Shown here in pieces: positions 42,687-56,653 of a DNA stretch of 64,000 nt (position 1 is the first letter of the stretch; each line of letters begins with the position of its first letter). The position numbers and the translations under genes were made by a program. The stretch comes from Halobacillus hunanensis. Lineage in GTDB: Bacteria; Bacillota; Bacilli; Bacillales; Halobacillaceae. The notes under the pieces are model-generated. The model was not told where the DNA came from. It made no database searches and saw only the letters and a program-made list of their open reading frames with translations. The stretch spans positions 992,001-1,056,000 of the forward strand of contig NZ_FVZB01000006.1 in the NCBI RefSeq assembly GCF_900166655.1, written 5' to 3'.

Positions 42687-42713
42687 TAGCCCCACCTGCC
42701 GGTGAGGCTATTA
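42684..42713. terminator. Terminator shared by the small peptide and the lia operon
   Basis: A stem TAATAGCC/GGCTATTA closing an inner ACC/GGT stem. It overlaps the stop codons of both convergent genes. Confidence 0.65.
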
Positions 42714-43343
42714 CTCTGCAAGGTTATGTTTAAAAGCATAAATGACCGCCTGAGTGCGGTCCTGTACCCCAAGCTTACCTAAAATGTTACTAACGTGGAC
42801 CTTGACTGTCTTTAAAGCGATAAACAGCTGCTCAGAAATTTCCTGATTGGTTTTTCCCTCAGTCATGAGCAGCAGGATTTCCATTTCTCTGGATGTGAGC
42901 TGTTCATGAAGGTCTGCGGTCTCGGGCGTCCGCATTTTTGTCATAATTTTGCCGGTAACTTCTGGCTCAAGAATTGACTGCCCGCCATATGTTGCCCGAA
43001 TGGCATCAGCAATTTCACCTGCTTTAGAGGTTTTCAGCATATAACTCGTAGCTCCAGCCTCAAGAGCAGGATAAACTTTTTCATCATCAAGAAAACTCGT
43101 GACGATAATAATTTTAGCTTCCGGCCATTGATGAATAATCTTTTTCGTTGCTTCGATCCCGTCCATTTCTTCCATAACAAGGTCCATCAAAATTATATCC
43201 GGGCGTTGTGCTAAAGCCAGATCGACGGCCTCTTTTCCATCATTTGCTTCAGCGACTACCTCTATATCTGATTGCGCTGATAAATAAGCGGAAACACCGA
43301 TACGGACCATTTCATGATCATCAGCGAATAATACAGTAATCAA
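42711..43343 (-). CDS. liaR: Response regulator LiaR/VraR type (NarL family)
   Basis: A 210-residue regulator: receiver domain with acidic pocket D8-D9, phospho-acceptor D54 (IILMDLVMEEMDG) and switch lysine in YMLKTSKAGEI, then a LuxR-type helix-turn-helix (LTSREMEILLLMTEGKTNQEISEQLFIALKTVKVHVSNIL, about 150-190). It is the last gene of liaI-liaH-liaF-liaS-liaR, overlapping liaS by 4 nt. LiaR is activated by LiaS during cell-envelope stress (lipid II cycle antibiotics, cationic peptides) and turns on liaIH. Confidence 0.94.
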   Translation of the reverse strand: MITVLFADDHEMVRIGVSAYLSAQSDIEVVAEANDGKEAVDLALAQRPDIILMDLVMEEMDGIEATKKIIHQWPEAKIIIVTSFLDDEKVYPALEAGATSYMLKTSKAGEIADAIRATYGGQSILEPEVTGKIMTKMRTPETADLHEQLTSREMEILLLMTEGKTNQEISEQLFIALKTVKVHVSNILGKLGVQDRTQAVIYAFKHNLAE

Positions 43344-44380
43344 GATGGCTCTCCCCCTTTTACAAAATGAGGTACTTTCACTTCAAGTCTTGTTCCTTGT
43401 TCGGACAAGCTGACAACCTTTAACGTACCACCGACTTCTAAGGCTCGCTCCTGCATATTTTGCAACCCATAGGAACTTGTTTTAGCCTCTTCTACATCAA
43501 ATCCAATGCCGTCATCCACTATTCTTAAGATAATATGATCATCTCTTTCAATCAGCATTACTGTCAGCGTATTGGCTTTAGCATGCCGTAGTGTGTTGGA
43601 GACAGCTTCTTGCAATATCCGAAATAACTGGTCCTCGATTCCTTTTTCCAGCGACAACGGCTCAACGGTCCATTCAATGTTCATAGGCACTTTCTGTGTC
43701 AATTCATGTAAGAGCTCGTTACACCCTTCAGACAGTGATTTATCCTTGAGGGCAACTGGTCGCAAATGGAGAAGCAATGCCCTCATCTCAAGCTGTGACT
43801 GATGAATCATTTTCTCCACCATAGCCATCTGTCTGTCTCGAGACTCAGTATCTGTTGATTTATTTTCATTGATCGCTGACATCATCATGGACGCTGCAAA
43901 TAATTGCTGACTCACAGAATCATGAAGCTCACGTGCTAAACGGTTCCTTTCCTGATGGACAACTTCCTGGAGACTCTTCTCCCGCTCTTTAGCACGTTCA
44001 GAAGCTAAACGTTGGGCCGTTTCTGTCTGTTTCTTAAACCGAGCTTCTATTTGCTTCATTTTCTCCTCAATCTTCTGAAGATCGCCTCGATCCACATCAT
44101 CGTACAGTACAGGATTCCCCTTGCCGATTTCATCAAGTTGATGTTCCACATAATGAAACTTCCTCTTCAAAGCATAGCCCTGGGCAATTCCAACGCCTAA
44201 TCCGCCAGTGACTGACAACGCTAGCGCAAGAAGTATATACGGTAAATCAAGTACTTTCCTCGACCATAAATCTGACCAATCCTTTAGGGGGAAAGCCGAA
44301 AAGGTAAACAGCAGGATAACCATGGCAAAAAGAACAAACGATAATAGGCCGGCTAGGACCTGCTTCTGCCATCCATTCAT
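43340..44380 (-). CDS. liaS: Sensor histidine kinase LiaS
   Basis: A 346-residue kinase of the small intramembrane-sensing type: two helices (about 8-30 and 45-68) with almost no outside loop, a HAMP-like linker and coiled coil, a HisKA_3 domain with the phospho-acceptor His in RLARELHDSVSQQLF, and an ATPase domain (EAVSNTLRHAKA as N box, VDDGIGFDVEE, SYGLQNMQERA). It phosphorylates LiaR. It overlaps liaF and liaR by 4 nt each, so all three are translationally coupled, consistent with LiaF acting as its direct inhibitor. Confidence 0.94.
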   Translation of the reverse strand: MNGWQKQVLAGLLSFVLFAMVILLFTFSAFPLKDWSDLWSRKVLDLPYILLALALSVTGGLGVGIAQGYALKRKFHYVEHQLDEIGKGNPVLYDDVDRGDLQKIEEKMKQIEARFKKQTETAQRLASERAKEREKSLQEVVHQERNRLARELHDSVSQQLFAASMMMSAINENKSTDTESRDRQMAMVEKMIHQSQLEMRALLLHLRPVALKDKSLSEGCNELLHELTQKVPMNIEWTVEPLSLEKGIEDQLFRILQEAVSNTLRHAKANTLTVMLIERDDHIILRIVDDGIGFDVEEAKTSSYGLQNMQERALEVGGTLKVVSLSEQGTRLEVKVPHFVKGGEPS

Positions 44381-45099
44381 ATCCGTTTCACCTCGATGTC
44401 TCCCGACACTATCGAGGTAATAATTTTAACTCGAGGTTTGGTAGTAACGTACTCAGGTGTACGATAGGATACCATCTGATTGAACAACTTCGTTTTACGA
44501 TATTGAAAAATAGCCGCCCGCCCAAGGATTGCGCTATGGTGTACCGCTACTTCAACTTCATAAGGTACATATATTTGGACATTACCAACTAAATGGCGAA
44601 TTGAAATGACCGCCTCATCTTCAGGGAAAACGGCATGACTAAGATCAATAACACGATCACCAAACCCGCCATGGACATTGATATCCCGCCATTTATAAGA
44701 CGTTCTGGCTGTCGTTTGGTCACCGAATAACTTTTGCTTCACCAGCGGTTCAGTCCCCGCGTCAAAAGGAACATCATCCGCTTGTAAGTTTAAATGAATT
44801 CGCTCTGGTTCTTTTTTTGTTCGAAAGTAATGACGTATGAAAAGAACGATGACGACAATAATTAGAAAACGAACGGCTATCATGTTTAAAATCGTCAAGG
44901 TTAGGCTGATTAAGCCAATCCAGAATAGGATTTTCCCCCATACTTTTCGATACTTTTTCCAACCTATATAGAGGAACAATCCTGAGAAAAGTACAGAAAA
45001 GATGAGACCGCCGTTAAAGAAGGTGATCTCAAGAAACAGGAGAATTACCCCTATGATTAAAATGGTGTTAATGGTACTTGTCGACATATGTTTAAACAT
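44377..45099 (-). CDS. liaF: Lia system inhibitor LiaF
   Basis: A 240-residue protein with an N-terminal block of about four helices (10-88) and a C-terminal cytoplasmic beta-rich domain of the LiaF/DUF2154 type (GDQTTARTSYKWRDINVHGGFGDRVIDLSHAVFP, then GNVQIYVPYEVEVAV). It holds LiaS inactive without stress. GGAGG lies 8 nt before the ATG. A terminator-like hairpin lies between it and liaH, so it can be expressed at a lower level than liaIH. Confidence 0.92.
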   Translation of the reverse strand: MFKHMSTSTINTILIIGVILLFLEITFFNGGLIFSVLFSGLFLYIGWKKYRKVWGKILFWIGLISLTLTILNMIAVRFLIIVVIVLFIRHYFRTKKEPERIHLNLQADDVPFDAGTEPLVKQKLFGDQTTARTSYKWRDINVHGGFGDRVIDLSHAVFPEDEAVISIRHLVGNVQIYVPYEVEVAVHHSAILGRAAIFQYRKTKLFNQMVSYRTPEYVTTKPRVKIITSIVSGDIEVKRI

Positions 45100-45155
45100 A
45101 AAGGTAACCTCCTTCTTCCGTGGGACCGGCTTTTTAATGTTATTTATAGCACCAA

Positions 45156-45179
45156 AAAGACGCAGTGTCCTGCGCCTTT
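45156..45179 (-). terminator. Partial terminator between liaH and liaF
   Basis: On the minus strand AAAGGCGCAG-GACA-CTGCGTCTTT, then TTTGG. It follows the liaH stop by 17 nt. Such a site would let most liaIH transcripts stop here, as in Bacillus subtilis where liaIH is far more abundant than liaFSR mRNA. Confidence 0.65.
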
Positions 45180-45195
45180 CATGATACCATGATTC

Positions 45196-45837
45196 TTACT
45201 GTACCGTAACATCCTCTGTATTCTTCATATCTTTTTCAAGCTGTGCAACCTTACTATCAAACGTATTACGGTAATAGGCACTATTCACTTTATACTCTAA
45301 GTCTTCAATATAACGATCCATTTCGGAGAACCTTGCATACGGCTTGTCCGCTGTATCTTCCAGAACTTGATTCATACGGTGATGAGCGCGGGCGATGTTT
45401 TCACGACCCATCAGTTCCATCCGCTTCACATGCATGTCCTTTAACTTGTGCTTCATTTCTTCATATTTCTGTTCAAGTGTTTCGAGCTGCTTGACCGCTT
45501 CTTCATAGGAACACTTTAACCGCTCTGACCGTTCTTCATAGGCCTCGCGTTCCTTAACTGCAAATTCATACATCGTCTCTTCTCCAGCTTTTTGAGCTAC
45601 TTCCGCCTGGTGCTTACGCTTGTCCACCATTTCTTCAGCTCTTTGCTGTTCACGAGCGAACTCGTCCTTCAATCGATACTGACGTTCAACCAGTTTACGG
45701 ACTTTTTCCGTTTCCTTTTCACTCTCGCGTAAGTATTGGTTCAACATCGCAATTGGATTCTTTTGTTCTTTCTGGTCTAAGGCATCATGCAAGTCAGCCG
45801 TAATCGTATCCTTCAAACGTGTAAATAAATTAGCCAT
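45196..45837 (-). CDS. liaH: Phage-shock-type protein LiaH (PspA/IM30 family)
   Basis: A 213-residue protein that is almost wholly coiled coil, beginning with the amphipathic helix ANLFTRLKDTITADLHDALDQ that binds membranes and the PspA family segment PIAMLNQYLRESEKE. It forms large oligomers that protect damaged membrane. It lies 29 nt downstream of liaI, its membrane anchor, and ahead of a partial terminator. AAAGGAGAG precedes the ATG. Confidence 0.94.
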   Translation of the reverse strand: MANLFTRLKDTITADLHDALDQKEQKNPIAMLNQYLRESEKETEKVRKLVERQYRLKDEFAREQQRAEEMVDKRKHQAEVAQKAGEETMYEFAVKEREAYEERSERLKCSYEEAVKQLETLEQKYEEMKHKLKDMHVKRMELMGRENIARAHHRMNQVLEDTADKPYARFSEMDRYIEDLEYKVNSAYYRNTFDSKVAQLEKDMKNTEDVTVQ

Positions 45838-50898: not shown

Positions 50899-52347
50899 AT
50901 GCTATCCTACCAGCGCTCCATGGGACAATACGAAACACCCTTATCGACTGTCGAATACATGGTGAAGACTATACTCCAGGAAATTAAGCAAACACCACAA
51001 CCAGCCCATATATTAGATCCTTCTACAGGTGATGGTGTGTTTGTCAGGGCGCTGATAGAAGCAGGAGTCGATCCTACCTATATTCATGCTTATGATATCG
51101 ACCCTAACGTTTCCCTAGACGTACCTGATGTGCAATTCATTCATCAAGACTTCCTAACATCAAAGCCACAGCAAGTTTTCGATGCGATTATAGGAAACCC
51201 ACCCTACAAATCAATTCGTCACAGTGATTATTTTAAAAAAAATAAACAGGACCTCGAAAAAAACTTTAAAGAGATCGGTGTGCATAATTTGTATACCCTC
51301 TTTATCTATAAGGGACTTCAGTTATTGAAAGAAGGCGGAGTTTTATGCATGATCGTTCAAGATTCTTTTTTAACGAATGTGCATTATACCAAGTTTCGTC
51401 AGTACTTAATAGATCACACAGAAATAATTGAAATCATACTCGCCCCCAGGAAATTGTTTCACGTTGGCAAAGCTGATGTACGAACAGCCATTATAACGAT
51501 TAGGAAAGGTTCTCCTAAGCCAGATCACGTGATGAAATTAGTCGACCGCTTGGCAGCAGAAGAATACAATTCACCTCCAGCAGAGCGAGTACAATATTTA
51601 CAACAATCCTATTTTCGTATGATGCCTGGTTCCAATTTTGCCATTAATGTCCCTGAGGAAATTCTCTCCTTATTTATAAAACCAGAATTCACCCTGGCTG
51701 ATAAGGTACAAGGAGGAACAGGGATTTCAACTGGAAATGATAAACAGTTTCTATTCAGGCCCTGGGAAGTCAATGAAGATGATGAGGAGTGGATTCCTTT
51801 CTATAAAAATGGAGGGATTCGTGATCGATGGTATTATGAACCGAAATACTACATTCATAAGAATTGGGAAAAGTATAGCCGGGCAGTCCCTAAATTTACC
51901 GTTCGTAACCAGAAATTCTTTTTCCGTGAAGGAATTACCTGCTCCTCTATGGGGATCGACTTTCAGGCATCATACCTGCCTAAAGGCAGTCTGTTTGGGG
52001 TAAACACAAACCTCTTTACTGAAAATGAAGAAGAGCTTTATTACCTTCTAGGTCTCCTAAATAGCAATTTGACTAGCTACATGCTGCGTAAAGTGTTAAA
52101 TCGCACAAATATGATTACTTCCGGATATGTTAAAAAGCTGCCTTTTATTGAGCCGGACCCTCCATTAAAAAGCTGCATTTCCAAGCAAGTAAAGCACATC
52201 GTATCTGAGAAGCAGAAAAACTTATCCTATGATCCCACTATTCAGCAGCAAAACATAGATAATAGTATTTTTGATGTTTATCGCATCTCGCCCAGCAACC
52301 GAGTTCATGTTAATAATTTTTGTGAACAGCTTATTGAACTGTTATAA
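50899..52347 (+). CDS. Orphan adenine-N6 DNA methyltransferase, TaqI-like
   Basis: A 482-residue class I methyltransferase. SAM-binding motif I is HILDPSTGDGVFVRALIEAG (about 35-55), followed by the acidic AYDIDPN, and the catalytic motif IIGNPPYKSI (about 101-110) shows adenine-N6 specificity. The C-terminal half (from about 250) contains stretches like GTGISTGNDKQFLFRPWEV and a YYLLGLLNSNLTSYMLRK region, typical of TaqI/Eco57I-type target recognition. No restriction enzyme gene is adjacent on either side. It may be an epigenetic or solitary methylase, or the survivor of a lost restriction system. GGAGG lies about 9 nt before the ATG. Confidence 0.87.
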   Translation: MLSYQRSMGQYETPLSTVEYMVKTILQEIKQTPQPAHILDPSTGDGVFVRALIEAGVDPTYIHAYDIDPNVSLDVPDVQFIHQDFLTSKPQQVFDAIIGNPPYKSIRHSDYFKKNKQDLEKNFKEIGVHNLYTLFIYKGLQLLKEGGVLCMIVQDSFLTNVHYTKFRQYLIDHTEIIEIILAPRKLFHVGKADVRTAIITIRKGSPKPDHVMKLVDRLAAEEYNSPPAERVQYLQQSYFRMMPGSNFAINVPEEILSLFIKPEFTLADKVQGGTGISTGNDKQFLFRPWEVNEDDEEWIPFYKNGGIRDRWYYEPKYYIHKNWEKYSRAVPKFTVRNQKFFFREGITCSSMGIDFQASYLPKGSLFGVNTNLFTENEEELYYLLGLLNSNLTSYMLRKVLNRTNMITSGYVKKLPFIEPDPPLKSCISKQVKHIVSEKQKNLSYDPTIQQQNIDNSIFDVYRISPSNRVHVNNFCEQLIELL

Positions 52348-52398: not shown

Positions 52399-52690
52399 CT
52401 ATGCAGCTTTCAAACTTTTCCTTTTCTTCCTAATGTCTCTCTTAGTTAATATGGACATAATTAAGGCCACCACGAAGAGTCCGGCAAAGAAGATTAAACT
52501 ACTTTCATAGCTGCCCGTTGTATCATTCATATAAGCTGCAAATTGCGGTCCGGCAAGACCCGATGCGGCCCAAGCTGTCAAAATATAACCATGAATGGCA
52601 CCTAATTCTTTCGTACCAAACAAATCCCCAATAAAGGCTGGGATTGTTGAAAAACCTCCACCATAACACGTGTAAATAATACCAAGTGAA
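52399..52690 (-). pseudogene. Truncated MFS transporter (OFA family), C-terminal piece
   Basis: About 97 residues remain: LGIIYTCYGGGFSTIPAFIG, LFGTKELGAIHGYILTAWAA, two further helices, and the basic tail KRDIRKKRKSLKAA. This is the last third of an oxalate/formate-antiporter-type MFS protein. On its 5' side the frame runs into the right end of an IS200/IS605 element at about 52691. The N-terminal part is not found beyond the element's other end (54480 onward is the terminator of another gene), so it was deleted, not just interrupted. Confidence 0.85.
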
Positions 52691-52691
52691 C

Positions 52692-52810
52692 TACCCACCA
52701 CTTACCACCCTTATGGATGCTTGAAGTGGGGGCTTCTTGGGTCATCACCACTTTTGTTAGCTAGTGAAATGGACCAAGCTAACCCTCTTGTTCCAAGAGT
52801 TTTTATTTTA
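52692..52810 (-). ncRNA. Predicted TnpB guide RNA scaffold (omega RNA)
   Basis: In IS200/IS605 elements the 3' end of tnpB plus the right-end hairpin is processed into the RNA that guides TnpB. Here the stretch from the tnpB stop to the right end contains two stems (ACTCTTGGAACAAGAG-type and CCCACTT/AAGTGGTGGG). The guide would be the first host bases after the right end, inside the MFS remnant (beginning near TTCACTTGGTATTATTTACA). Prediction from family knowledge. Confidence 0.5.
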
Positions 52811-53926
52811 TTAGGCAATCGCTAATAAGCGAATGCCTTCTTTTTTGATGTTTAGGGCAGCGTTGTAGTCTCGATCAAGATTTAGGCCACAAGCACAATG
52901 ATAGATACGTTCTGACAAGGCTACCTCTTTTACGGAGCCACAACTTGAACAAGTTTTTGTAGAAGGAAACCATTTGTCTATTTTGACAAGTTGTTTCCCT
53001 TGTTCATGTAGCTTGTACAGCAGAAAAGAAGTGAACATTCCCCATCCATTATCAGCTACACTTTTTCCAAATTGAAGTGCTTTCGACATTCCCTTCATAT
53101 CTAAATCTTCGATAATGATGGCATCATAATTCACAACGAACTCTTTCGACGTATGATGAAGAAAATTTTTGCGTTGGTTGGCGACTTTTTCTTGAATTTT
53201 AGCCACTCGAATCCGTTGTTTATTCCAATTCGAAGAGCCTTTCTTTTTTCGAGAAAGCTTGCGTTGTTCCGTTGCTAATTTATCAAGCATTTGACGATAG
53301 AAACGAGGATAATTGGCTTTCTTACCTGTTTCACTATCGACAAACAATCCATCCATCGCAAAATCTAACCCAACAACACTTTGAATTTCCTTGCCTTTAA
53401 TCTCTTTTTCATATTCAGTCAAAATCGAAATATAGTATTTTCCTGATGCCGTCATTGAAATGGTGCATGACTTCATGTTGTGCTCCACAGGAATCTGTCT
53501 ATGTTGCTTCATTTTTACTATTTTAAGTTTAGGTAATTTGATATGACGATCCAATAACTCAATATTTCCGTTTACGACATTCGTTGTGTAGCTTTGTTTA
53601 TGTCTCTTACTTTTGAATTTTGGAAACTTAGCGTTACCTTTGAAAAAGGCTTTATAAGCCTTATCTAAGTTTAGCTGTGCATTGGCAAGCGCTAAAGAAT
53701 CAACTTCTTTTAGCCACGAGTATTCTTTTTTGTATTTAGCAGGAGTCGGGTGTTTCACCTTTTTTAAGGTTTCTTTATCATCTTTGAGGCGATCATACGT
53801 TTCTTTTCGTTCTGATAACATTTTGTTATAGATAAAGCGAACACAACCAAAGGTTTTGTGTATAACGATCTCCTGTTCTTCCGTTGGATACAGACGAAAT
53901 TTATACGCTTTATTTTGTTTAGCCAT
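52811..53926 (-). CDS. tnpB: TnpB RNA-guided endonuclease, IS605 OrfB
   Basis: A 371-residue protein. The N-terminal HTH/WED-type part starts AYKFRLYPTEEQEIVIHKTFG. The RuvC catalytic residues are present: D in VVGLDFAMDG, E in AIIIEDLDMKGM, D in LNLDRDYNAALNI. The zinc finger C-x2-C...C-x-C (CSSCGSVK...YHCACG) is intact. TnpB cuts DNA at sites matching its guide and thereby favours retention of the element. It is not truncated. AGGTGA precedes the ATG. It follows tnpA by 11 nt. Confidence 0.94.
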   Translation of the reverse strand: MAKQNKAYKFRLYPTEEQEIVIHKTFGCVRFIYNKMLSERKETYDRLKDDKETLKKVKHPTPAKYKKEYSWLKEVDSLALANAQLNLDKAYKAFFKGNAKFPKFKSKRHKQSYTTNVVNGNIELLDRHIKLPKLKIVKMKQHRQIPVEHNMKSCTISMTASGKYYISILTEYEKEIKGKEIQSVVGLDFAMDGLFVDSETGKKANYPRFYRQMLDKLATEQRKLSRKKKGSSNWNKQRIRVAKIQEKVANQRKNFLHHTSKEFVVNYDAIIIEDLDMKGMSKALQFGKSVADNGWGMFTSFLLYKLHEQGKQLVKIDKWFPSTKTCSSCGSVKEVALSERIYHCACGLNLDRDYNAALNIKKEGIRLLAIA

Positions 53927-53937
53927 ATCAAATCACC

Positions 53938-54336
53938 TCACTTTATCTCTTGATTTTCAATATACGTTTTCACCACTTCAATAGGTGAACCACCAGTAGT
54001 CAATAAACAGAAACTTCTCGACCAAAACATTTCTTTCCATAGTTTTTCACGCACATAGGGAAAACCCTTCTTGATAAGTCTCGAACTTGCACTTTTATAC
54101 GCATTGACGAACTTTGATAATTCACTGTTGGGGTGAGCTTTGAACAGGATATGAACATGATCTATATCATGGTTCCACTCAACCAATGTAATATTGTATT
54201 TCCCGCCCAATGACACAAATTTTTCTTTTGCATAATCAGAAATTGAATCGTTCATAACTTTTCTTCGGTATTTCACTACTAGTACAAGATGATAATACAT
54301 TAAGAATACTGAATGATTATTACTATCTAATTTCAT
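53938..54336 (-). CDS. tnpA: TnpA, IS200/IS605 Y1 transposase
   Basis: A 132-residue HUH single-strand transposase. The metal-binding HUH motif is HVHILF in WNHDIDHVHILFKAHP, and the catalytic tyrosine is likely in the C-terminal helix VVKTYIENQEIK. The length is that of full, active members. It moves the element by a peel-and-paste single-strand mechanism guided by the subterminal hairpins. With an intact tnpB, the element looks autonomous. Confidence 0.92.
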   Translation of the reverse strand: MKLDSNNHSVFLMYYHLVLVVKYRRKVMNDSISDYAKEKFVSLGGKYNITLVEWNHDIDHVHILFKAHPNSELSKFVNAYKSASSRLIKKGFPYVREKLWKEMFWSRSFCLLTTGGSPIEVVKTYIENQEIK

Positions 54337-54561: not shown

Positions 54562-54903
54562 TTATGAACGTTGGACAAACTCAATAATTTCTTTGTTAAA
54601 CCCCTGGTAGTAGACCACCTCTAGCCCTGCCATACTGTATGGTCCCTCATAAATAGACAAACCCCTGTTGCTAAGTTCCCGGATTTTAGCCGGCAGGTCA
54701 AATACCTCTATTGCAAAATGTACCCCCTGAGGCTGTCGATCTTTAGGCTGGACTAATTCAATCGTACAGTCTTCATTTGTTAAAAAAACGATACGTTCAT
54801 CTGGGAATTCCAGCCTCCTATCAACCGTAAACCCCAACTGGCAGCAATAAAACCTCTCCGCCTGCTCAACATCGAACACTTCAACCCCGACATGATGAAA
54901 CAT
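54562..54903 (-). CDS. VOC-family (glyoxalase-fold) protein
   Basis: A 113-residue single VOC unit: MFHHVGVEVFDVEQAERFYC...LGF at the start, QGVHFAIEVFD in the middle, and EIIEFVQ at the end. The usual metal ligands are His (HHVGVEV), a His in VHFAIE and Glu (EIIEFV), so metal binding is likely. Family members include glyoxalase I, dioxygenases and epimerases. The ATG follows the stop of the QueA-like gene with no gap (TAA then ATG), a sign of tight translational coupling. The substrate is unknown. Confidence 0.85.
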   Translation of the reverse strand: MFHHVGVEVFDVEQAERFYCCQLGFTVDRRLEFPDERIVFLTNEDCTIELVQPKDRQPQGVHFAIEVFDLPAKIRELSNRGLSIYEGPYSMAGLEVVYYQGFNKEIIEFVQRS

Positions 54904-55935
54904 TTACAGTCTGCCTGGGACAATTAGATTCATGTCCCCAAATTCATGCCAAAAATAACCCTGTTCAATGGCTTCATTATAAGCTCCTATTAATACCTCA
55001 TGGTCAACAAACGCTGTGAGCAAGTCTAGATGACTAGCTTCTGGTTCATGGAAGCCAGTTAAGAGGGCATCCACTATTCTCAAGGAATGCTCCTGATTAA
55101 TATACAAATAGGTAAGAACAGAGTCCTGCGGAGTTAAGCGATCATTCCGAACAGCTGATTCCAGCGCACGTACAACGGTTGTGCCTACAGCTGTCACACG
55201 GCGCCCTTCCTCTTTGGCTTTATTGATAACTCCAGCTGTTTCATGCGGGATCGTGTAAAGTTCGGGATGACTGGACGGTGACGGCCATTTATCATCCTCG
55301 TAATAGCTCAAAGAAGTATGAAGTGTAACATAGCATATTTCCACCCCTTTTTCTTCCAACGCCGCGATGATTTCCCAAGTAAATGCGCGTCCGGCTGAGG
55401 CCATCTCAATAGATCCTGGTACAGAACTATAGACGGTTTGATAGTCATTCAGCGGCCAAGGGTTTTCCACATACTCATAGTAAATTGGGGATCCATAGTC
55501 ATAAATATATTCCATCAGCGAAATCCCGCCGAACTGGAATTTCAATACTTGCAAAGGATGTTCACTTCCCCTCCCTTCAACTGTTGCCAAGAGGCCGTTT
55601 TGAAAGTAAATGTTTTCCCCATCTCTGTATTGATTTCCTACTAACAACACTTCGTACCGATCATGATTTACTTTCCTGGCTAATCGAACTTCAACATCAC
55701 CATTTGCTCCGCCAGCTTGCAAACTTGAAGGGATCGTTCTCGACCGATTGAGGACGATCACATCACCTGCTTGAAAAGTATCGATTATAGTACGGAAGTG
55801 TGTATGCTTCCTTTTTCCGGACAATGGGTCTAGCACCATCATTCTAACTTGGTCACGCTCAAGACCTCTTCGTTCTATAGGTGATGATGCATGAAGATGA
55901 GTAGGAATTTCAAACGAGGTTAACAGATTACTCAT
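54904..55935 (-). CDS. QueA-like protein with altered signature motifs
   Basis: A 343-residue protein aligning along its whole length with QueA, the S-adenosylmethionine:tRNA ribosyltransferase-isomerase that makes epoxyqueuosine. Shared: FEIPTHLHASSPIERRG, LDPLSGKRKHTHFR, VGTTVVRALES, and IVDALLTGFHEPEASHLDLLTAF. Changed: the NDTRV site is NRSRT, the APTAGLHFT site is EMASAGRAFT, the HVGLGTF site is LHTSLSYYE, and the end YRFFSYGDAM site is YFWHEFGDMN. These are the usual active-site segments, so it probably acts on another substrate. SD GGGAGG precedes ATG 55935. It overlaps the SDR gene by 8 nt and abuts the VOC gene. Confidence 0.82.
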   Translation of the reverse strand: MSNLLTSFEIPTHLHASSPIERRGLERDQVRMMVLDPLSGKRKHTHFRTIIDTFQAGDVIVLNRSRTIPSSLQAGGANGDVEVRLARKVNHDRYEVLLVGNQYRDGENIYFQNGLLATVEGRGSEHPLQVLKFQFGGISLMEYIYDYGSPIYYEYVENPWPLNDYQTVYSSVPGSIEMASAGRAFTWEIIAALEEKGVEICYVTLHTSLSYYEDDKWPSPSSHPELYTIPHETAGVINKAKEEGRRVTAVGTTVVRALESAVRNDRLTPQDSVLTYLYINQEHSLRIVDALLTGFHEPEASHLDLLTAFVDHEVLIGAYNEAIEQGYFWHEFGDMNLIVPGRL

Positions 55936-56653
55936 GTACCAGCGCCTCCCTTGAGAAACCTTCCGCTTCGAAGCGTTCCCCGTTATGGTTTCTCGATTCA
56001 TCAGAAGCTAAATAGAAGAAAACGTCTAACCTGTCTTCCGGTCTTGCCAGCTGGTAATCGCAATCAGGAACGGCTCGATCATGCATTTCGGTATCCATTT
56101 CACCCGGATCTACCATATTAATTCTTATACTATAATCAGCAATTTCGCATGACCACGTTTGTGTCAATCCTTCCACGGCAAACTTTGAGATCCCATAAGC
56201 GCCCCACTCGGCAAACCCAGTATGCCCCGCTTCTGAAGTTAAGTTAATAATTGAACCAGTCCGGTTTGCAATCATTCCTGGCAGCACTCTTTTGGTCACG
56301 AGAAATGGATTCATGCTATTGACTTTTAACACATGAAGAAACTGTTCATGGTCATAATCAAGAAGCTGCTTAGGGCCAGGGCCGAATACGGAAGCATTAT
56401 TAATTAACACATCCACACTTCCGAATCGATCCTCTACTAGAGAAACGAACTTTTCGATATCATGGACGTTTGAAACGTCCGCTTGGAGAGCAATCACTTC
56501 TGCACCTAATTCCTCAATCTCTTTCTGTACGGCTTTTAACTCCTGGGCTCCCTTTGCACAAATAGCAATACGATGATTCTGTTTAGCGAACCCTAAGGCT
56601 AACGCTTTCCCAAGACCCTTAGAGCCACCCGTTATCATAATGGTTTTACTCAT
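55928..56653 (-). CDS. Short-chain dehydrogenase/reductase (SDR)
   Basis: A 241-residue classical SDR: cofactor motif TGGSKGLGKALALGF (TGxxxGxG, residues 8-15), NNAS (about 87), and the catalytic S-Y-K in LTSEAGHTG...YGISK (Y about 152, K about 156). The family reduces or oxidises carbonyl/hydroxyl groups with NAD(P)H. It is the first gene of the SDR/QueA-like/VOC operon, overlapping the next gene by 8 nt. The substrate is unknown; the coupling suggests a shared pathway with the other two. Confidence 0.9.
   Translation of the reverse strand: MSKTIMITGGSKGLGKALALGFAKQNHRIAICAKGAQELKAVQKEIEELGAEVIALQADVSNVHDIEKFVSLVEDRFGSVDVLINNASVFGPGPKQLLDYDHEQFLHVLKVNSMNPFLVTKRVLPGMIANRTGSIINLTSEAGHTGFAEWGAYGISKFAVEGLTQTWSCEIADYSIRINMVDPGEMDTEMHDRAVPDCDYQLARPEDRLDVFFYLASDESRNHNGERFEAEGFSREALVHE

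Follow-up and report, generated by a model that had tools for sequence, protein, structure and literature searches.

QueA is the enzyme of queuosine synthesis that moves ribose from S-adenosylmethionine (SAM) to preQ1 in tRNA, and a single reaction is assumed for the whole QueA family. The binding of SAM and tRNA by QueA is not yet understood: a 2023 review calls the binding mode of either ligand unclear and states that ligand-bound QueA structures are lacking (PMC10491745). In Streptomyces coelicolor, three papers report a NarL-type regulator (SCO1801) and a kinase (SCO1802; PMC9739842), a protein called a dehydrogenase (SCO1803; PMC11272600), and SCO1804, entered as QueA in a table of tRNA-modification genes (table 4) that names no Tgt (PMC4932002). 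AirS, the sensor of another system compared below, is according to a review a [2Fe-2S] redox sensor kinase which is inactivated by H2O2 or NO (PMC8774646). Here we analyse 64,000 nucleotides from Halobacillus hunanensis (assembly GCF_900166655.1, contig NZ_FVZB01000006.1, positions 992,001 to 1,056,000 of the forward strand; hereafter the window), which contain an operon for a short-chain dehydrogenase/reductase (SDR), a QueA-like protein and a protein of the vicinal oxygen chelate (VOC) fold (Table 1).

The QueA-like protein belongs to a distinct and widely spread clade whose conserved partner is one type of SDR and to which a VOC protein is added in Bacilli. The Bacillota genomes checked also keep a canonical QueA. 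In a minority of loci, redox-type two-component systems and respiratory genes recur next to the operon. With a probability of about 0.45 we consider that the operon encodes a SAM-using pathway distinct from the synthesis of queuosine, with the redox or respiratory state of the cell as its probable switch. Our literature search, with subscription papers mostly outside its reach, found no description of this SDR-linked clade.

A clade apart from canonical QueA

Nearly the full length of the PF02547 model (positions 5-322 of 322) is covered by the QueA-like protein. Its AlphaFold2 model (mean predicted local distance difference test, pLDDT, 90.6) finds known QueA structures as sole Foldseek matches at E <= 0.001, i.e., 1vky (3e-27), 1yy3 (4e-26) and 1wdi. 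By full-length match and fold it is a member of the QueA superfamily. At the same time it stays below the cut-offs of all three NCBIfam QueA equivalog models that it matched and is no QueA equivalog by this measure; it scores 214.9 bits against NF001140, with a cut-off of 324 bits, and 189.8 bits against TIGR00113, with a cut-off of 267.45 bits.

The H. hunanensis genome carries PF02547 in two places, a canonical QueA (486 bits) and the window protein (262 bits). The only tgt match of the genome directly adjoins the canonical queA, not the window gene. QueG and QueC each have a single strong match, and these as well as the weaker partial ones lie outside the window. The sequence-only reading had stated that no queuosine genes (tgt, queC, queE, queG) are nearby and had suggested checking the genome for a canonical queA next to tgt; the genome-wide matches bear out the former for tgt, queC and queG, all outside the window, and the latter exists. 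Because canonical queA sits beside tgt, with QueG and QueC elsewhere, queuosine synthesis seems independent of the QueA-like gene. The motif changes described in that reading are real when set against the genome's own canonical QueA, which has YRFFSFGDAM where YRFFSYGDAM had been given. What has to be corrected is the view that the QueA-defining segments are lost. Rather, other residues have taken their place, and these hardly vary within the new clade.

The same reading had proposed a phylogenetic tree, and the tree does separate the QueA-like proteins from canonical QueA. Among 137 rows, 81 Bacilli proteins stand on one side of a branch with an SH-aLRT (Shimodaira-Hasegawa-like approximate likelihood ratio test) value of 97, and 48 canonical rows are held together at 99. 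A careful tree of 66 rows, i.e., 64 of the 137 and two new ones, with a bootstrap that was not fully settled, gathered 35 SDR-partnered rows from three phyla on one side of a branch (100/98), with support of 100/100 for 28 canonical rows. Loci L119-L122 were dropped from the trees as duplicates of L115-L118. Three QueA homologues from plasmid clusters (L115, L117, L118) fall on the canonical side.

A comparison of residues shows 43 positions that are near-invariant in both canonical QueA and SDR-linked proteins; thus the core of the fold is kept. Six other positions are fully switched, in 88 of 88 SDR-linked against 48 of 48 canonical proteins: P154 to Y153, A179 to E177, T182 to S180, N299 to G294, L307 to H302, and S336 to E331 (canonical to QueA-like numbering). 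E177 and E331 also occur in the three plasmid-cluster homologues; Y153, S180, G294 and H302 do not. Since the six positions are fixed in either group, the residues have been exchanged and have not decayed. A decayed pseudo-enzyme is therefore rejected: the switched positions are as fixed as they are in canonical QueA.

The reductase partner, the accessory VOC protein and their distribution

The gene order was followed in 80 named Bacillota loci of the Bacillaceae, Caryophanaceae, Fictibacillaceae, Paenibacillaceae, Alicyclobacillaceae and Thermoactinomycetaceae. They are the best 80 of at least 555 confirmed stretches and, being chosen as best matches, lean to close relatives. Loci L005-L033, which are partly of the same species as the named loci, were left out of the counts. 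The SDR gene lies directly upstream of the QueA-like gene in 79/80 loci; the 80th (L112) is cut by the contig end, has no SDR and was dropped from SDR count and spacing. A VOC gene follows downstream in 74 loci, 73 of them detected by BLAST and one (L090) added by clustering, with a short copy in L102; a stricter search retains 70. It is missing in L048, L055, L075, L103, L106 and L107. When the start codon closest to the end of the SDR gene is used, the QueA-like start overlaps the SDR in 59 of 79 pairs (QueA-like start minus SDR end, -11 to -1 nt) and lies within 25 nt in all 79. In the window the QueA-like stop codon directly abuts the VOC start with a gap of 0 nt.

The family labels and the tight coupling of the three genes, both proposed from the sequence, are confirmed by Pfam matches and by the positions of the open reading frames (ORFs), respectively. 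Coupling by chance is ruled out by the SDR upstream and the VOC gene downstream in so many named relatives. The notion of one preserved cassette of three genes needs a distinction: the order SDR-QueA-like is kept in relatives, the VOC gene is not always. Because the VOC gene is missing in 6/80 loci and was not found beside distant members at the thresholds used, we take SDR and QueA-like protein as the core unit and VOC as accessory.

In the order of the window genome the QueA-like gene is carried by 76 of 299 sampled genomes, as counted by eye (42-54% identity, E 1e-86 or better). These matches stand clear of the next ones, with about 35% identity and E 3e-52 or weaker. All 76 carriers have at least one further QueA match. 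The 16 second matches listed among carriers are all 32-35% identical to the query; 15 of these 16, those outside the window genome, share 64-83% identity with its canonical QueA. The distribution is patchy. One of four sampled genomes of the window's genus has the gene, and a phylum-wide sample contains the Bacilli type in 2/398 genomes, with two more, G487 and G605, carrying a distant type.

In the class of G487, a distant one within the Bacillota, the type was found in 5/72 genomes (E <= 1e-60) with an adjacent SDR in 5/5; all five genomes also have queA and tgt of canonical strength. Rhizobium plasmids contributed 32 matching records, and both of the two that were read (L116, L170) have an SDR directly upstream. 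An actinomycete, Nonomuraea gerenzanensis (L114), has an SDR-QueA-like pair in which the QueA-like protein is 37% identical to that of the window and 31% to canonical QueA. Its record of 11.85 Mb contains one QueA homologue and is absent from the tgt matches listed, which were 60 of 69 in one search and 60 of 67 in another, with an actinobacterial query against which other actinomycetes score 35-71%. If the absence of tgt holds, the clade can stand without preQ1-tRNA. Beside the distant members (L114, L116, L170 and the distant class) no VOC gene was found at E 1e-3 or E 1e-10.

QueA homologues with 29-38% identity are also present in phage records. In genome G741 the QueA-like copy (L179) is frame-shifted near its end and left as two pieces; the adjoining SDR and kinase still match, and the regulator match is split, too.

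The SDR is 54-68% identical to the window copy and conserved as much as the QueA-like protein or more. It is a classical SDR (PF00106) with a TGxxxGxG motif and an Asn-Ser-Tyr-Lys tetrad. The tetrad residues N112, S140, Y153 and K157 are each present in 80/80 sequences (window and 79 loci), the cofactor residues T8, G9, G13 and G15 in 79/80. Position 34 is Arg in 79/80 and Lys in the window copy; a basic residue at this position favours NADP(H). The window SDR further has the motif D182-P-G-E-M-D-T-x-M-H, which recurs as D182-P-G-x-M-x-T in Rhizobium (L116) and in a deep Bacillota locus (L173), where D182, P183, G184, M186 and T188 are kept.

By sequence and model the VOC protein is a putative VOC metalloenzyme with paired beta-alpha modules and a His/Glu/His/Glu ligand pattern. 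Its putative metal ligands H4, H62 and E108 are present in 72/72 and E49 in 71/72 sequences (window and 71 loci; the alignment used clustered copies, with 9/80 loci missing). A model with pLDDT 92.7 has the VOC fold with all four residues on strands. We take the pattern to be that of the glyoxalase I metal ligands. By profile, the nearest solved relatives include methylmalonyl-CoA epimerase, glyoxalase I and FosB, the latter at E 3.2e-10 and by profile similarity only. Its scores fall short of the NCBIfam thresholds set for GloA and epimerase.

Redox-type neighbours, proposed pathway and alternatives

In 19/80 loci a GAF-HisKA_3 kinase resembling AirS and a LuxR/NarL-type regulator are encoded near the operon, i.e., in the fetched flanks of up to 6 kb. 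One kinase and one regulator were confirmed by Pfam, the rest were assigned by clustering. Two-component systems of this kind had no part in the sequence-only reading. Of the adjacent kinases 18/19 have four Cys as CX3-7CXCX17C, the nineteenth has three; the pattern resembles that of Staphylococcus aureus AirS. A GAF-type kinase is adjacent in 4/5 loci of the distant class, in L181 with 44% identity to a Neobacillus kinase. In the fifth an Rrf2 gene and a gene for a quinol NO reductase (qNOR) are directly upstream of the SDR. In Nonomuraea a GAF kinase and a NarL-type regulator adjoin the SDR-QueA-like pair. Genes which from their sequence we presume to be cydAB-like adjoin the operon in 5/80 loci. 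An NnrS-like identity of a 393-aa protein beside L173 was dropped, since it has no Pfam match.

Upstream of the SDR 76 regions were scanned, from 75 loci and the window; L091, L097, L098 and L100 failed the start-motif step, and L112 has no SDR. An FNR/CRP/Rex-like dyad was found in 0/76 and no family-wide operator motif emerged among the 76. A sigma-B-like motif is present in 3/76 (0.3 in shuffles) and GTCGTA in 9/76 (2.9 in shuffles). The palindrome TGTGG-N6-CCACA likewise occurs in 9/76, all of them related Rossellomorea/Bacillus loci (L040-L043, L047, L057, L060, L064, L070), about 235 nt upstream of the SDR.

The separate branch, the near-constant pairing with a reductase and the redox-sensing genes that are sometimes adjacent lead us to conclude that the QueA-like protein probably does a different job. 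The idea of an altered QueA-like enzyme with a new role, already contained in the sequence-only reading, is strengthened by clade, second queA and gene order, with its chemistry still a proposal. From the retention of the 43 family-wide positions we infer that SAM is still bound and that the reaction follows QueA, i.e., C5' deprotonation, loss of adenine and methionine, and transfer of a five-carbon unit. The six fixed changes would rebuild the acceptor pocket and, because of this, preQ1 in tRNA would have given way to another acceptor, probably a small molecule that carries an amine or a nucleophile. The NADPH-type SDR would reduce or oxidise a carbonyl or hydroxyl group of product or acceptor. 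In Bacilli the metal-site VOC protein might isomerise the product or open its epoxide, epoxide opening being the activity of FosB-type relatives. The product would be made in response to changes in O2, NO or redox state sensed by AirS-like kinases. In its full form the proposal is a new SAM-dependent biosynthesis, in which a QueA-type enzyme freed from tRNA would cut the ribose of SAM and, together with the SDR (and VOC in Bacilli), build a pentose- or cyclopentane-derived small molecule, used by several phyla upon changes of O2, NO or redox state. We advance this detailed version tentatively, with the odds leaning against it.

A number of observations weigh against the pathway reading. Some concern its breadth: few actinomycete and Rhizobium members were examined (one and two loci), the Bacilli-only group is weaker in the careful tree (69/94), and most canonical rows cover just the gene, not the flanks in which an SDR would show. 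The others bear on tRNA or on the redox link and are set out with the alternatives that draw on them.

The chief alternative is that the protein still modifies RNA. It would attach the cyclopentane unit made from SAM to a different tRNA base that bears an amine, e.g., an aminomethyl uridine at position 34, and SDR and VOC would finish the modification under stress. The same fold and the 43 near-invariant positions in common with canonical QueA are consistent with this. The paralogs, moreover, have gained five conserved basic columns (R84, R87, R88, R152, R183), and their mean net charge is -6.8, against -9.5 for canonical QueA (-15.5 in carrier genomes). Carriers keep canonical QueA, so a link to queuosine-tRNA may persist there, and in two of the 80 loci (L082, L111; Bacillus/Neobacillus) a canonical queA is situated about 4 kb downstream of the operon, which is arranged in both as an SDR-QueA-like-VOC-kinase-regulator group. 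On the opposite side, only 6 of 18 columns with conserved Lys/Arg in canonical QueA are still basic in the paralogs and 12/18 are gone, a count to which no significance test was applied; other classes are kept in 9/15 (acidic), 13/22 (Ser/Thr/Asn/Gln), 17/31 (Gly/Pro), 3/6 (His) and 82/111 (hydrophobic) columns. A loss of tRNA binding by net charge was considered and found unsupported by the charge test; the conserved-column test alone favoured it. The argument from basic residues is local only, because the net charge is not more acidic and five basic columns were gained. Apart from the two queA copies, no tRNA-modification gene was seen by eye in the 25 largest neighbour clusters. Metabolic-type SDRs and VOC proteins are not known to take part in tRNA modification. 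The loss of conserved basic positions and the case of Nonomuraea, with only this type and no tgt among the matches listed, suggest that preQ1 in tRNA is not the acceptor, and a non-tRNA acceptor is likely. An RNA-modifying enzyme we regard as somewhat unlikely.

Next, the operon might be catabolic or detoxifying. SDR, QueA-like and VOC proteins would then not build a product but break down or repair a metabolite of redox stress, of the nucleoside-like, sulfonium or reactive-carbonyl kind. The profile relatives of the VOC protein (glyoxalase I, FosB, methylmalonyl-CoA epimerase) and the redox-linked gene contexts would fit, as would the MerR gene annotated as SoxR which in Rhizobium L116 is divergent from the SDR-QueA-like pair. 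However, QueA chemistry is known solely as transfer, and with no VOC gene found beside distant members the core would be devoid of a glyoxalase-like step. We regard this reading as unlikely.

The redox link could also be incidental, the operon moving as a cassette with the AirS pair and cydAB as chance neighbours that related strains inherited. Neither the pair nor cydAB-like genes are in the fetched flanks, some of them short, of 56/80 loci, and the operon occurs patchily and in many different contexts. The window locus itself lacks both; the closest pair of NarL type, some 10 kb off, includes a membrane kinase, and the AirS-like kinase with the Cys motif in this genome sits on another contig. 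The Nonomuraea kinase is without the Cys motif, and the Rrf2/qNOR context is known from one locus. Against mere coincidence stands that the pair is encountered upstream as well as downstream and on the same or opposite strand, that its label changes on the tree at least five times, and that the kinase recurs in the distant class and beside the actinomycete pair. We consider coincidence quite improbable.

An ordinary QueA duplicate, i.e., a divergent isozyme making epoxyqueuosine under special conditions, would agree with the full-length PF02547 match and with annotations as QueA or SAM:tRNA ribosyltransferase-isomerase (L116; the table of PMC4932002), but is rejected as very improbable by the NCBIfam scores, the separate clade, the switched positions, the SDR partner and the lack of Nonomuraea among the tgt matches listed.

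A SAM-using pathway apart from queuosine synthesis thus stays our preferred reading. A second QueA clade would be the natural contrast with which residues that handle SAM can be told from those that handle the acceptor. Its oxidoreductase partner is nearly constant, and the clade occurs in a quarter of the genomes sampled from one order as well as in at least two further phyla. What it points to is an uncharacterised product derived from SAM, which may be tied to respiratory stress.

The locus and its known counterparts

The inverted repeat upstream of the SDR could be a terminator on the plus strand or an operator; terminator-like sites number 2, against 1.9 expected in shuffles, and the dyad was found in 1/76 upstream regions and is not common to relatives. 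Directly downstream of the operon is an insertion-sequence element of the IS200/IS605 type. Farther off are an Eco57I-type methylase gene and, beside it, a short ORF that resembles transporters of the major facilitator superfamily (MFS) weakly and below threshold. A SAM riboswitch is the sole above-threshold Rfam match in the window; no connection to the operon was seen. A group of four genes presumably resembles, by sequence, a Lia-type system with a PspA-like protein.

Table 1. Coordinates of the operon, its surroundings and the homologues discussed (window positions unless a contig, C, or locus, L, is named)
Feature	Position	Strand	Remarks
SDR family oxidoreductase, 241 aa	55928-56653	-	first gene of operon; PF00106 E 1.4e-53
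QueA-like protein, 343 aa	54904-55935	-	from ATG at 55935; PF02547 E 9.2e-78; longer in-frame ORF also possible, start at 56001
VOC (glyoxalase-fold) protein, 113 aa	54562-54903	-	PF13669 E 1.2e-10
Overlap of SDR end and QueA-like start, 8 nt	55928-55935	-	from ORF positions
Inverted repeat TTACGAC-N4-GTCGTAA	56762-56779	.	upstream of SDR; terminator-like on + strand or possible operator
IS200/IS605-type element	52811-54336		Y1 transposase 53938-54336; TnpB/Cas12f-like protein 52811-53926
Eco57I-type N6 DNA methylase gene and short ORF	50899-52347 and 52399-52701
SAM riboswitch RF00162	34332-34447	+	89.5 bits
Regulator, membrane kinase, membrane protein, coiled-coil protein	42711-45837
Canonical queA, H. 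hunanensis	C6:1271605-1272618
tgt, H. hunanensis	C6:1270470
QueG match, H. hunanensis	C6:10710
QueC match, H. hunanensis	C2:886571
Canonical-type queA near operon	L082 11018-12055		67-68% identical to canonical QueA of window genome
Canonical-type queA near operon	L111 11015-12052		67-68% identical to canonical QueA of window genome
Split QueA-like gene, G741	L179 6042-7240
Plasmid-cluster QueA homologue, Geobacillus pGeo12a	L117 4980-6014
Plasmid-cluster QueA homologue, Streptococcus salivarius pSaLI10	L118 4977-6023
Plasmid-cluster QueA homologue, Sinorhizobium pRmeGR4a	L115 5956-6981

Among described genes, SCO1801-SCO1804 of S. coelicolor come close. The tags are consecutive and, going by the published annotations, the order of regulator, kinase, dehydrogenase and QueA matches that of the Nonomuraea locus. 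By tags and annotations SCO1804 probably belongs to the same family as the SDR-linked QueA-like protein. 'QueA' in actinomycetes such as Streptomyces may consequently be wrongly read as a sign of queuosine-type tRNA modification. A link to a plant-toxin island of Pseudomonas was discarded; queA is there just a name in a figure legend (PMC11760712).

The plasmid-cluster homologues are likewise non-canonical members of the QueA family, with no tgt annotated nearby and with E177 and E331 in common with the clade. They differ by their place on the canonical side of the tree, by the four further residues that they lack and in that no SDR homologue was found nearby. The clusters of pGeo12a and pSaLI10 contain PqqD-like, thymidylate-synthase-like and phosphotransferase genes, that of pGeo12a also a decarboxylase of the diaminopimelate type. 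In the pRmeGR4a cluster a decarboxylase and two radical SAM genes are accompanied by a weak match to PqqD-like proteins. A pyridoxal phosphate (PLP) decarboxylase is among the neighbours of these homologues. Such clusters look biosynthetic and may use QueA chemistry.

The AirSR/YhcSR system resembles the gene pairs near the operon in its GAF-HisKA_3 kinase with the four-Cys pattern and its NarL/LuxR-type regulator; here, by difference, control of the SDR/QueA-like operon is deduced from gene neighbourhood alone. With the VOC metalloenzymes glyoxalase I, FosB and methylmalonyl-CoA epimerase the VOC protein has fold and ligand pattern in common, at low identity. Canonical QueA (PF02547; NF001140, TIGR00113) is a close counterpart of the QueA-like protein, by full-length homology, by fold and by 43 near-invariant positions. 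The QueA-like protein is set apart from it as a separate clade with six switched positions and with an SDR as partner in place of tgt.

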